Assembly (NCBI GenBank): GCA_947449765.1
Contig: CANFSP010000004.1
Span: forward strand, 124,001 to 188,000
DNA from: Actinomycetota bacterium
GTDB taxonomy: Bacteria; Actinomycetota; Actinomycetes; Actinomycetales; Microbacteriaceae
DNA: 64,000 bases
Direction of reading: 5' to 3'
A program made the translations under genes and the position numbers. Of the stretch, positions 4,781 to 57,010 are shown piece by piece. Position 1 is the stretch's first letter. Each line of letters starts with the position of its first letter. The notes beneath the pieces were generated by a model. That model searched no databases. It was not told the DNA's origin and was given only the letters and a program-made list of their open reading frames with translations.

Positions 4781-6148
4781 TTAGTGCACGCCCAGTGCGC
4801 GAAGGGCGGCAGCCGCCTTGAGGAGCATTTCATCCAATTCGCTTGACGGATCAGAGTCACTCGTCACACCGCCGCCGCTACCGATGGAAGCTCCCGAGGC
4901 ATCAATGACGAGCGAACGAATCACCATCGCTAACTCCGCGCAACCGTCGAGACCGAACCAGCCAAAGGCTCCGGAATAAATCCCCCGAGGACCCTGTTCG
5001 AGACGCTGCAGAATTTCCATCGCTGCGCGCTTAGGAGCGCCGGTCATCGAACCGGCAGGAAAACACGCGTCGAAGGCGTCGAGGGCGGTCTGACCAGGCT
5101 CAATGAGGGCACTCACGGTACTCACCAACTGGTGCACATGCGGCAAGGTTTCGACCTCGAGTAGTCGATCCGCACTCACGGTTCCGGTCACCGCGACTCG
5201 CGATAGGTCGTTGCGCATGAGATCGACAATCATGAGGTTCTCGGCGCGCTCTTTCTCGCTTGACCGCAGCTCATGGATGAGTTGGGCATCCTCATCGGTC
5301 GTTGCGCCACGGCGTCGAGTGCCCTTAATGGGCATGGTTGTCACGCGAGAATCTGGCGTCACGCGCAAAAAGACTTCGGGAGATGAACTGAGCAAGTTGA
5401 CTCCGCCGAGCCGAAGCAGCCCTCCGTGGTGACTGGGGTTATCCTCGCGTAACGCGTGGTAGGTCGCGAGGACGTCCCAGTCCCCCGGGATTCGAATCTG
5501 ATTGGTAAGACACAGCAAATAGGCATCGCCGTCCCGAATAAATTTCCGGCACTGATCAACCAGGTTTTCGTACTGCTGCGGCTCATGGCGCCACCGAAGT
5601 GATGAATGGATGTTCGCGGCAGCTTCGCGTGAAGCACCGCCGCTGCCCTCCTGCCGCCCTCGAGAAACATTTCCGGCCGGATAGGCCGCGACGAGCTCCG
5701 CGAGAGCCTGCGGGGTGTGCGCAACAGCGATGACGCTTTGACCCGCATGATCGAATGCATACATAGCGCGAACGCGCGCGAAACACGCATCCGGGTAGGG
5801 AGAAGTCACATGCGGTATGCCGACCAGCCCGTTGCCGAACTCGTATCCAAACCAACCCACATAACCTAATCGAAAGGGTCCGACCGAGGTGAGCGGAAAG
5901 CCCTTCGGGATGAACATGTCACCATCTGGGTCAACGGCAGTCGGCGCAGGGATTTCTGCCCGAAGCGCATCCATCACATCCTCGGTAATGAGGGGATCGG
6001 TAATGCCCGCAATGTAGGAGTACCCCGTCGTTGCGAGAGGTCCCGCGTCCAGCCACACGGTGTTGTCATGCTCACCATCGAGCTGCGCATGGACATCCTT
6101 CGGATCGCTCCACTGAGGAAGGACCGACCAGTAAATGGGCGCAGACAC
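4781..6148 (-). CDS. pabB: Aminodeoxychorismate synthase component I
   Basis: A 455-residue chorismate-utilising enzyme. Together with a glutamine amidotransferase subunit (PabA/TrpG, not in this window) it makes 4-amino-4-deoxychorismate for folate. The motif [10 protein letters not shown] carries the lysine typical of aminodeoxychorismate synthases where anthranilate synthases have alanine, which argues for PabB over TrpE. The C-terminal catalytic signatures [19 protein letters not shown] and YSGAFGWFG are intact. It starts with GTG at 6148 and lacks a Shine-Dalgarno. It diverges from pabC across only 18 bp, and the predicted -10 elements of the two genes overlap. Confidence 0.94.
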
Positions 6149-6153
6149 GGTAC

Positions 6154-6160
6154 TAGCCTA
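6154..6160. promoter_or_regulatory. Shared bidirectional -10 element between pabB and pabC
   Basis: The 7-bp sequence TAGCCTA reads TAGCCT on the plus strand, seven bases before the pabC ATG at 6167. It reads TAGGCT on the minus strand (6160-6155), six bases before the pabB GTG at 6148. Both fit the TANNNT leaderless pattern seen across this window, so one near-palindrome could direct transcription both ways. Promoter activity is inferred. Confidence 0.5.
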
Positions 6161-6166
6161 AAGAGT

Positions 6167-6937
6167 ATGACTTTGCCGAGTGGTCACTACCGTTTTAACG
6201 GCTCTGCTCTGAACACACTCGAGAACCCCGGCAGCATCTCACTATTGGTTGCGGATTCGTGGCTGATTCGAGACGGTCGCGTGGTGAGACTCGAGGATCA
6301 CTTCCAGCGCTTTAGCGACGGCGCAGCGGCGCAGGGGTTAGTTACCAACCCCCGCATTTTTCTGGAGCGTGTGCGCGATGCCCTTCCGGACTCCGGCGTG
6401 TGGTTTCCGCGAATCGAACTCACGTCACGCGGGGAACTCCAACTGCTGATTCGCGAAGCACCTGAACTCACCGAATCGGTGTCACTATGGACCGCGGAAC
6501 ATGATCCTCGAACTGAACCGACAATCAAAGGCCCAGACATCCCCGCACTAGAAAATCTTCGAAATGAGGCGCGCGAACACGGCGCCACCGAAGCCGTCAT
6601 TCTCTCAATCGATGGTTTCATCGTTGATGGTGCCACCACTTGTTTGCTCTGGTGGAGAGAAAACCAACTACACATTCCTCGTCGCGAATTTGCCCGGGTG
6701 ACAAGTGTTACCCAGAAAATTGTTGAGTCGATCGCGCGTGACCGCGGAGTCGCAATCGTGGAAAGCGCCCACTCACCACAGGAACTCGACGAGTGCGAGG
6801 TATGGGCGGTCAATGCCCTCCATGGCCTCAGGCCGGCGCGAAGCTGGGTTTCTGGACCGCGGTTATTCGTCGATGAGACTCGCTTGGCACTCTGGCGTGA
6901 CGCGTACGAAAACTATCGCGAACTCGTGACAAACTAA
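6167..6937 (+). CDS. pabC: Class IV aminotransferase, probable aminodeoxychorismate lyase
   Basis: A 256-residue fold-type IV PLP enzyme. Its position beside pabB points to 4-amino-4-deoxychorismate lyase, which releases p-aminobenzoate and pyruvate. The family pattern is visible: a conserved early Arg (about residue 45), the candidate Schiff-base lysine in TIKGPDIPALENLRNEA, and the later IVDGATT motif corresponding to the usual EGSTSN cofactor loop. In that loop the usual Glu is Asp, a conservative but less common change. The ATG at 6167 is used because the upstream in-frame extension runs into pabB. A branched-chain or D-amino-acid aminotransferase role is possible but less likely given the context. 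Confidence 0.82.
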   Translation: MTLPSGHYRFNGSALNTLENPGSISLLVADSWLIRDGRVVRLEDHFQRFSDGAAAQGLVTNPRIFLERVRDALPDSGVWFPRIELTSRGELQLLIREAPELTESVSLWTAEHDPRTEPTIKGPDIPALENLRNEAREHGATEAVILSIDGFIVDGATTCLLWWRENQLHIPRREFARVTSVTQKIVESIARDRGVAIVESAHSPQELDECEVWAVNALHGLRPARSWVSGPRLFVDETRLALWRDAYENYRELVTN

Positions 6938-52298: not shown

Positions 52299-52994
52299 CT
52301 AACGGATCAACACGTGCCCGCGCTCGTTAGAAATCCGCATCCACTTACCATTGACCGTCACCCGCATGTAACGCTCGGACTCCTGGGGGCTGGTCGCCAG
52401 GCCAGTGGGCGAAGAATGCAGTGGCTCATCATCGATGAAGCCGAGTCCGAGGGCGGCGAACGCCGCTCCAGCAGGGACGATGTGCCCGGTTTCGAGTGTC
52501 GCGAGTGGCGCATTCCACGTGGAATGACGCACCTCCTCGACAATTCGCACGCCCAACCCATTCGCGTCAGCCACGGCCGTGATTCCCGCTCGAGCAACAG
52601 AGCGGAGCGCATCCTCACTCAACAAGCCCACCGGTTGCCAGTCGTCGCGGGGTGCACTCACGCCAGCCCACGCCACACCGGGTTGTGGCACGGGCAGCGC
52701 AATTGCGCTCGTGCCACGAGCTAATCGATCGAGAACGGCAGCAATCTCTACGACGATCGATCCATGCCAACTCGTGGTCGTCACGTGGCCGGTGCGCCCG
52801 CCGATAATGTTCGGTGACGTGTCGAGCAAGCCTTGCTTGGTTAGCACCCCCACGCTCGCAGAGAAAATTCCGCCGTCCTCAGATGAGGCACTGACCGCGA
52901 CGTGTTCACAGCCGAGCCTTTTCGCTCGCTGGAGGAACGTCGAAAAATCACGGGCATCATCCGTGGAGGCGAGTTCAAGAAGCGCTGATGTCAT
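52299..52994 (-). CDS. Conserved hypothetical protein
   Basis: A 231-residue soluble protein with no signal or membrane segments. The AKRLGCEHVAVSASSEDGGIFSASVG stretch and the VNGKWMRISNERGHVLI end show no motif I recognise. It is a single-gene unit: it converges with the globin gene and diverges from the thioesterase. A good Shine-Dalgarno (AGGAGTGAC) precedes the ATG, with TAGTTT just upstream as a candidate -10. Confidence 0.75.
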   Translation of the reverse strand: MTSALLELASTDDARDFSTFLQRAKRLGCEHVAVSASSEDGGIFSASVGVLTKQGLLDTSPNIIGGRTGHVTTTSWHGSIVVEIAAVLDRLARGTSAIALPVPQPGVAWAGVSAPRDDWQPVGLLSEDALRSVARAGITAVADANGLGVRIVEEVRHSTWNAPLATLETGHIVPAGAAFAALGLGFIDDEPLHSSPTGLATSPQESERYMRVTVNGKWMRISNERGHVLIR

Positions 52995-53079
52995 GTCACT
53001 CCTAAACTAGCCAATGAGTCGGAGCGCACATTCGCACGCCGAAACTCGAATACTGGCATTACCCACCCGAGGAGTCCCC

Positions 53080-55315: not shown

Positions 55316-56998
55316 CTAGTCCCGTGTCAACTTACGGTAGGTGGAGCGGTGCGGATTTGCCGCGTCCGGCCCGAGTCGCTCAATTTTGTTTGCTTCGTAG
55401 GCTTCAAAGTTTCCCTCGAACCAGTGCCAGTAGCCCGGTTTCTCCTCGGTGCCTTCATAGGCAAGGATGTGCGTGGCGATTCGGTCCAAGAACCACCTGT
55501 CGTGCGTAATCACCACGGCACAACCGGGGAATTCAAGGAGCGCATTCTCCAGGCTGGACAGTGTCTCAACGTCAAGGTCGTTGGTCGGTTCGTCGAGAAG
55601 CAATAGGTTGCCACCCTGCTTGAGGGTGAGAGCAAGATTGAGTCGGTTGCGCTCACCGCCCGAAAGCACGCCGGCAGGTTTTTGCTGATCCGGACCTTTG
55701 AATCCGAACGTCGAGACGTAGGCGCGACTGGGGATCTCCGTGTTTCCCACCTGGATGAAGTCCAAACCGTCCGACACGACTTCCCACAGGGTCTTTTTGG
55801 GATCAATTCCCGATCGCCCCTGGTCGACATAGGAAACCTTGACGGTCTCTCCGATTTTGACGGCACCGCTGGATGCTTCTTCAAAACCGACGACGGTTTT
55901 GAAGAGGGTGGACTTTCCAACACCGTTTGGACCGATGACGCCCACGATTCCATTGCGGGGCAAGGTGAAGGAGAGATCTTCAATGAGGACGCGGTCGCCG
56001 AATTTCTTTGTGAGTTTCTCGACCTCGAGAACCACACCACCGAGCCGAGGTCCGGCTGGAATCTGGATCTCCTCGAAATCGAGCTTGCGGGTGCGCTCGG
56101 CTTCTGCAGCCATCTCCTCGTAGCGACCCAATCGCGCCTTGGACTTTGCTTGCCGTCCTTTGGCGTTACTGCGCACCCAATCCAGCTCTTCAGCGAGTCG
56201 CTTGGCAAGCTTGGCGTCTTTCTTGCCCTGCACCTCAAGGCGTTCGGCTTTCTTCTCGAGGTAGGTCGAGTAATTGCCTTCGTACGGATAGAGGTGACCG
56301 CGATCCACCTCCGCAATCCACTGGGCGACGTGATCGAGGAAGTAGCGATCGTGGGTAACCGCGAGCACAGCGCCGGGATACTTGGCCAAGTGTTGCTCGA
56401 GCCACAGCACACTCTCGGCATCCAAGTGGTTGGTGGGCTCGTCAAGGAGCAATAGATCGGGCTTTTGTAACAAGAGCTTGCACAACGCAACGCGACGCTT
56501 TTCACCACCGGACAGAACGGAAATGGCCGAGTCAGAGGGTGGGCACCGAAGGGCATCCATTGCTTGTTCTAGTTGTGAATCGAGGTCCCACGCATCTGCG
56601 GCATCAATCTCGCTCTGCAGATGTCCCATTTCTTCAAGGAGGGCATCGAAGTCGGCATCAGGATCAGCCATCGCAGCCGAGATGTCGTTAAATCGGTCAA
56701 TCTTCGACTTGATTTCGCCGACACCCTCTTGAACATTTTCGAGAACCGTTTTGGTTTCGTCGAGCTCGGGCTCCTGCATGAGGATTCCCACGGAATAACC
56801 CGGTGTCAGTTTGGCTTCACCGTTACTGGGCGTGTCCAATCCAGCCATGATCTTGAGAATGGTTGATTTACCCGCACCGTTCGGACCGACCACACCAATC
56901 TTTGCTCCGGGGAAAAACGACATGGTCACATCGTCGAGGATGACCTTGTCGCCAACCGCTTTGCGAGCACGAACCATGGTGTAGATAAATTCAGCCAT
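55316..56998 (-). CDS. ettA: Energy-dependent translational throttle protein EttA
   Basis: A 560-residue ABC-F protein with two ABC domains. The first has GPNGAGKSTILK and the signature LSGGEKRRVALCK. The interdomain linker (about residues 240-310) is Lys/Arg/Glu rich. The second has GPNGVGKSTLF and LSGGERNRLNLA, with LLLLDEPTNDLDVET as Walker B. The length and arm match EttA, which gates the first peptide bond according to the ATP/ADP ratio, rather than an antibiotic-resistance ABC-F. TAGGCT lies six bases before the ATG. Confidence 0.95.
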   Translation of the reverse strand: MAEFIYTMVRARKAVGDKVILDDVTMSFFPGAKIGVVGPNGAGKSTILKIMAGLDTPSNGEAKLTPGYSVGILMQEPELDETKTVLENVQEGVGEIKSKIDRFNDISAAMADPDADFDALLEEMGHLQSEIDAADAWDLDSQLEQAMDALRCPPSDSAISVLSGGEKRRVALCKLLLQKPDLLLLDEPTNHLDAESVLWLEQHLAKYPGAVLAVTHDRYFLDHVAQWIAEVDRGHLYPYEGNYSTYLEKKAERLEVQGKKDAKLAKRLAEELDWVRSNAKGRQAKSKARLGRYEEMAAEAERTRKLDFEEIQIPAGPRLGGVVLEVEKLTKKFGDRVLIEDLSFTLPRNGIVGVIGPNGVGKSTLFKTVVGFEEASSGAVKIGETVKVSYVDQGRSGIDPKKTLWEVVSDGLDFIQVGNTEIPSRAYVSTFGFKGPDQQKPAGVLSGGERNRLNLALTLKQGGNLLLLDEPTNDLDVETLSSLENALLEFPGCAVVITHDRWFLDRIATHILAYEGTEEKPGYWHWFEGNFEAYEANKIERLGPDAANPHRSTYRKLTRD

Positions 56999-57004
56999 GG
57001 TCTT

Positions 57005-57010
57005 AGCCTA
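57005..57010 (-). promoter_or_regulatory. -10 element of ettA (leaderless type)
   Basis: TAGGCT on the minus strand, six bases before the ettA ATG; no Shine-Dalgarno is present. Confidence 0.5.

Follow-up and report, generated by a model that had tools for sequence, protein, structure and literature searches.

A conserved pabB-pabC intergenic site in Microbacteriaceae as a probable bidirectional promoter of two leaderless genes

The 18 bp that separate a divergent pabB-like and pabC-like gene pair in a Microbacteriaceae genome very probably form a minimal bidirectional promoter of the sigma-70 type, from which both genes would be expressed as leaderless mRNAs. This reading, which we derive from the sequence and its comparison among relatives, concerns positions 6146-6169 of the window, the 64,000-nucleotide stretch of contig CANFSP010000004.1 that was analysed. 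The evidence consists of the anatomy of the site, the exact spacing between the −10 elements and the start codons, and a pattern of conservation in which changes fall at the free positions and not at the TANNNT letters.

The segment 6146-6169 reads CAC-GGTACTAGCCTAAAGAGT-ATG, where GGTACTAGCCTAAAGAGT is the 18 bp between the two start codons. On the minus strand, the pabB-like gene (4781..6148), an open reading frame for aminodeoxychorismate synthase component I that is predicted to be leaderless, starts with GTG at 6148-6146, a position that is retained in relatives. On the plus strand, the pabC-like gene (6167..6937, 256 aa), which encodes an aminotransferase of class IV resembling aminodeoxychorismate lyase, starts with ATG at 6167-6169, and its N-terminus is retained in same-genus relatives; a longer pabC reading frame from 6068 was set aside in favor of this start, the one that relatives retain. 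Between the genes lies a shared 7-bp near-palindrome of the form TANNNTA, TAGCCTA (6154-6160), which can be read as a TANNNT −10 element on both strands. The pabB −10 element is TAGGCT (6160-6155, minus strand), ending 6 nt before the GTG, while the pabC −10 element is TAGCCT (6154-6159, plus strand), ending 7 nt before the ATG, and each start codon is also the predicted transcription start of its gene. No Shine-Dalgarno 4-mer was found 4-10 nt before the start of either gene. The original prediction had described the two starts, the double −10 reading with its 6- and 7-nt spacings and the lack of a Shine-Dalgarno sequence on either side. All of this is confirmed from the sequence, and the last point extends to all 25 pairs with the geometry of the window, in which neither gene has such a 4-mer.

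The names pabB and pabC are used at the family level and come from family membership and neighborhood, because neither protein passes an NCBIfam cut-off. The pabB protein (455 aa) contains the Pfam domain Chorismate_bind, and its best NCBIfam model, TIGR00553 pabB, scores 313.4 bits, under the cut-off of 328.4. The pabC-like protein contains the Pfam domain Aminotran_4 (E 2.7e-24) and is 58-61% identical to two same-genus homologues; the best aminodeoxychorismate lyase models give it 37.9 bits against cut-offs of 273 and 176.85, and the second gene is called pabC-like because of its partner pabB. Inside this gene, a weak terminator-like hairpin with a T-run is located at 6334-6352 on the plus strand (one found against 0.3 expected from shuffles).

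In the mechanism that we propose, the housekeeping RNA polymerase would recognize TANNNT in either orientation of TAGCCTA, and RNA would begin about 7 nt downstream, with the G of the pabB GTG on the minus strand and with the A of the pabC ATG on the plus strand. Both transcripts would then lack a leader, and their translation would not use a Shine-Dalgarno site. Since the two polymerase positions overlap completely, only one could be bound at a time, and we infer from this geometry that RNA begins at each of the start codons and that the two polymerase orientations exclude each other. The arrangement might also have an effect on folate supply, although the original suggestion that it holds the two enzymes in balance found no support in these comparisons. 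The idea from which this work started, that one symmetric −10 element serves two leaderless genes, is strongly supported by the comparison of spacing and conservation described below, with the transcription starts themselves standing as predictions.

Of 398 genomes searched in the family Microbacteriaceae, 307 contain a match to the pabC protein. We examined 90 loci, 30 from this search and 60 stretches from other matching genomes, which were hand-picked among the best matches with one to several per genus and are a non-random sample. No pabB was detected by tblastn in five of them (L017, L019, L028, L060 and L068), and in the other 85, which represent 43 genera, it lies on the strand opposite to pabC. 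For every in-frame ATG and GTG candidate, TANNNT was scored over distances of 0-30 nt; choosing the start by the smallest gap was dropped, as in at least six loci this rule selected GTG codons inside the gene. Among the 85 loci, TANNNT stands 6 nt before pabB in 68 and 7 nt before it in 10, and it stands 6 nt before pabC in 51 and 7 nt before it in 21. At other distances, the count reaches at most 18 loci for pabB, at 0 nt, where it reflects the adjoining neighbor box of the second geometry described below (the next highest is 10), and at most 6 loci for pabC.

Both elements occur together, with start codons 11-20 bp apart and TANNNT at 6-7 nt from the pabB start and 6-9 nt from the pabC start, in 68 of the 85 loci and 33 of the 43 genera. 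The gap is 11 bp in 33 of these loci, 12 bp in 10, 17 bp in 16, 18 bp in 5, 19 bp in 3 and 20 bp in one, and the pabC distance is 8 or 9 nt in four. The original prediction regarded the compact leaderless pair as extreme, but it does not stand alone: such a pair occurs in all of these genera, and a tighter form with a gap of 11-12 bp is found in 25 of the 43. The remaining 17 loci lack the double short arrangement, with a −10 element for pabB only in seven, for pabC only in five, for both but more than 60 bp apart in three and for neither in two, L033 and L085, in which no −10 element stands 6-7 nt ahead of pabB or pabC. At loci from which one gene has moved off, the −10 element of the other remains. 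TAGGAT-N6-ATG is retained for pabB in L056 and L057, which no longer have the pabC ATG at this place, and TAGCCTA is retained in L039, L040, L061 and L062, where pabC lies farther away.

A second, named set, consisting of the best 80 of 239 relatives, was found by an alignment-based scan of genome contigs and shares genomes with the first. It contains the double arrangement in 61 of 80 rows, among them Leifsonia, Rathayibacter, Agreia, Cryobacterium, Salinibacterium, Frigoribacterium and Alpinimonas; 13 rows are not double, five are without pabB and one is tandem, and other rows of Leifsonia and Rathayibacter do not have the double arrangement. Among 149 genomes of the order, 13 matched at E<=1e-20, including that of the window itself, and no short-gap divergent pair was found at the other 12 loci, which lie outside the family. 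At these loci, pabB lies just upstream on the same strand in four (L206, L208, L210, L211), a pabB match lies downstream on the same strand in three (L214-L216), a weak partial match lies on the opposite strand about 0.8-1 kb away in three (L207, L209, L212), and L213 and L217 gave no pabB match.

The 68 double loci fall into two geometries. In type I, to which the window belongs, one TANNNTA serves both strands with a gap of 17-20 bp (25 loci, 8 genera). In type II, the gap of 11-12 bp is filled by CATANNNT-N(1-2)-ANNNTATG (43 loci, 25 genera), giving the layout CAT-ANNNT-N(1-2)-ANNNT-ATG, in which each −10 box is completed by the ATG of the opposite gene: the first base of the plus-strand box is the T of the pabB CAT, and that of the minus-strand box is the T paired with the A of the pabC ATG. 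The notion of a single melting site for both genes fits type I, where the −10 elements overlap; in type II, they are adjacent without overlap.

The start codons follow the same division. In a gap-11 set that was chosen blind to the motif, from start codons only and with ATG, GTG and TTG allowed, ATG stands at both starts in 36 of 36 loci, as expected if the first base of each box comes from the ATG of the facing gene. (ATG at both starts in 43 of 43 type II loci is forced by the selection rule and has no evidential value.) Type I has no need of ATG, and there the pabB start is GTG in 25 of 25 loci; among the rows on the tree, 26 of 26 of type I carry CAC at this place. In type II, a Shine-Dalgarno 4-mer precedes pabB in 8 of 43 loci (19%, about twice the 9% of shuffled sequence) and pabC in none of 43. 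We also counted the bases that must be fixed to hold two start codons and two TANNNT elements. Ten are needed at gaps of 6, 7, 11, 12, 17-19 and 22-24 bp, and at every other gap up to 30 bp the number is 12 or the layout is impossible. The observed gaps of 11, 12 and 17-19 bp all belong to the ten-base class, and the single gap of 20 bp uses a 9-nt spacing; gaps of 6-7 and 22-24 bp, also in the low class, do not occur among the loci observed.

On a tree of the PabB and PabC proteins (82 rows, quick search), types I and II are separated by a single change, indicating two inherited states rather than many inventions, so that the 68 loci are far from independent. Adding the 13 rows without the arrangement and the tandem row as further states gives 10 changes. 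With the tandem Streptomyces row as the outgroup, type I lies on basal branches and type II is nested, and type I looks ancestral from this topology; the outgroup row is long, which makes the root uncertain. Two rows carry unexpected labels. L199, a metagenome-assembled genome (MAG) of Microthrixaceae, has a type I arrangement with a gap of 20 bp and sits among Microbacteriaceae rows on a long branch, which may reflect either a transfer or a misbinned contig. L153, whose contig title is Mucilaginibacter (Bacteroidota), has a pab locus of type II that falls with the Microbacteriaceae on the tree, and it is probably a MAG contig assigned to the wrong organism.

For the conservation test, we relied on the motif-blind gap-11 set only, because the column counts of type I use rows chosen by the motif. 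Over the 36 loci of this set, the tree requires 33 changes at the seven free positions (10, 2, 0, 4, 7, 7 and 3) and none at any of the four −10 positions (p = 3e-7, assuming equal rates at all sites), with one of the seven free sites likewise unchanged. Among motif-blind gap-12 rows, 6 of 8 fit the layout and 2 of 8 do not. Within the boxes, the middle letters vary across the tree, while the TANNNT letters keep both their identity and their spacing from the start codons.

These data bear on three other explanations of the site. In the first, only one gene uses it, while transcription of the other begins at a promoter within the opposite coding sequence and gives a leadered mRNA. In its favor, the −10 element is at the right distance for pabB only in 7 of 85 loci and for pabC only in 5. 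We consider it unlikely: no consensus −35/−10 promoter was found at 5950-6400 of the window, type I pairs have no Shine-Dalgarno 4-mer before either start, and in the motif-blind gap-11 set the tree requires no change in either −10 element.

A second explanation takes TAGCCTA as the operator of a regulator of both genes, with its likeness to a −10 element being secondary. The near-palindrome of type I would suit an operator, as would its flanks, which are fairly similar in four Microbacteriaceae genera (g1, g13, g59 and g83). However, an operator should conserve its middle letters and not its spacing to a start codon, and the reverse is seen: the middle letters vary, and type II has lost the palindrome yet keeps TANNNT 6-7 nt from both starts. 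We consider this explanation very improbable, as the constraints on the site fit a −10 element with a leaderless start and not an operator.

That a compact divergent pair merely happens to hold TANNNTA is scarcely credible, for although the full pattern CAY-N5/6-TANNNTA-N5/6-RTG is no commoner in this 1.97-Mb genome than its reversed control (6 places against 8), the exact spacing recurs in 33 of 43 genera and the four required sites show 0 changes against 33 at the free sites. The number of genera and the tree changes already tell against chance as an account of the family-wide pattern, as judged from these comparisons. Since the genome-wide count is not above its control, the single case in the window is not significant alone, and the argument for a double-leaderless promoter rests on conservation across species.

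Within the window, TANNNTA is under-represented (11 occurrences against 22.75 expected), and TAGCCTA occurs twice against 0.56 expected. The only other TAGCCTA (57004-57010, TAGGCTAAGACCATG) lies 6 nt before the start, at 56998, of a 560-aa open reading frame on the minus strand. Another close divergent pair of open reading frames, starting at 52994 (minus) and 53014 (plus), has TAAACTA at 53003-53009, with spacings of 9 and 5 nt that misfit the leaderless rule. Overall, TANNNT stands exactly 6 nt before an in-frame ATG or GTG in 11 of the 55 open reading frames of the window and in 0-3 at any other distance, which suggests that about a fifth of the genes in this genome may be leaderless.

The pab pair is the main user of the type II pattern among the loci that were retrieved, but not the only one. 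In 120 genomes of the family, the pattern occurs at 67 sites, against 15 for the reversed pattern. Of 30 loci fetched from such sites, 16 hold the pab pair (identified by eye from the N-termini), 3 hold other pairs of open reading frames and 11 are not such pairs. In relatives, type II candidates stand between polyphosphate kinase-like and DUF255-like genes (L111) and between uracil phosphoribosyltransferase-like and tRNA adenosine deaminase-like genes (L113), both named by eye. The genome of the window itself contains a second type I double-leaderless candidate (L219, C3:166472-166494) between Nramp-like and MFS-transporter-like open reading frames, which reads CATGCGCCTAATCTAGCCTTATG and has a gap of 17 bp with both −10 elements at 6 nt. 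A looser candidate in the same genome (L092) has a gap of 20 bp and lies between cysteine desulfurase-like and glycogen debranching-like genes; the genes of both candidates were likewise named by eye.

Among the 43 genera examined, 25 have pairs in which each start codon physically belongs to the −10 box of the facing gene, so that drift from ATG would damage the promoter of the neighbor. The site may thus be a selected unit with neither leader nor spacer, in which transcription and translation signals are interlocked and two successive folate enzymes are bound to compete for polymerase, and we put the chances of this wider interpretation at about even. The loci also form a natural series of variants, some of them one-sided, that is suited to asking how few bases two promoters need, how the promoter of a neighbor constrains a start codon, and whether the output of two successive enzymes is determined by competition for polymerase.

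Both bidirectional promoters and leaderless genes are already known; here, the two would be fused into one conserved unit of 11-20 bp. Symmetric −10 elements at bidirectional promoters of E. coli were reportedly described by Warman et al. in 2021. Among the literature matches listed for leaderless genes with bidirectional or divergent promoters, none concerned the pab pair, judged by title and the start of the abstract, and none concerned start codons shared with an opposing −10 element. Matches for pabB or pabC with leaderless or divergent promoters, judged in the same manner, did not include this pair either, and the matches listed contained no RNA 5′-end data for any member of the Microbacteriaceae.

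According to the available portions of a later study of E. coli (Warman et al. 2026, PMC12825309), the −10 elements of bidirectional promoters overlap on the two strands, as they do in type I here. The same portions give 18 bp as the commonest spacing of divergent starts, with 18, 10 and 23 bp as common distances and small variation allowed. The predicted start distance (gap + 1) of type I is 18-21 bp, and 19 bp in the window, which is near the 18-bp class; that of type II is 12-13 bp, near none of the three, though small variation is allowed for there. Steric constraints are described there as barring simultaneous polymerase binding, and the promoters as having low basal activity and competition between polymerase orientations (PMC12825309). 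Unlike these E. coli promoters, both RNAs here are predicted to be leaderless, and the promoter and two translation starts lie within about 24 bp.

The spacing of each half of the site has counterparts in leaderless genes. In the accessible text of studies of Actinobacteria (PMC3160421, PMC3898074) and Deinococcus (PMC12340547), such genes carry TANNNT about 12 bp before the start, counted from the first T, as here, and in M. tuberculosis, where the element is likewise TANNNT, 26% of the genes with a primary start are leaderless (PMC3898074). The difference is that two divergent genes, both predicted to be leaderless, share one site in the pab pair; by word count, "divergent" and "bidirectional" do not occur in the main text of PMC12340547, nor does "divergent" in that of PMC3160421. 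A figure legend of PMC3898074 calls closely juxtaposed divergent promoters a common feature in M. tuberculosis, and the part of that paper available describes prpD and Rv1129c as divergent neighbors that are both mapped as leaderless, where the pab genes are predicted to be so. That pair consists of an enzyme and its regulator (PMC3898074), unlike the two enzymes of the pab pair.
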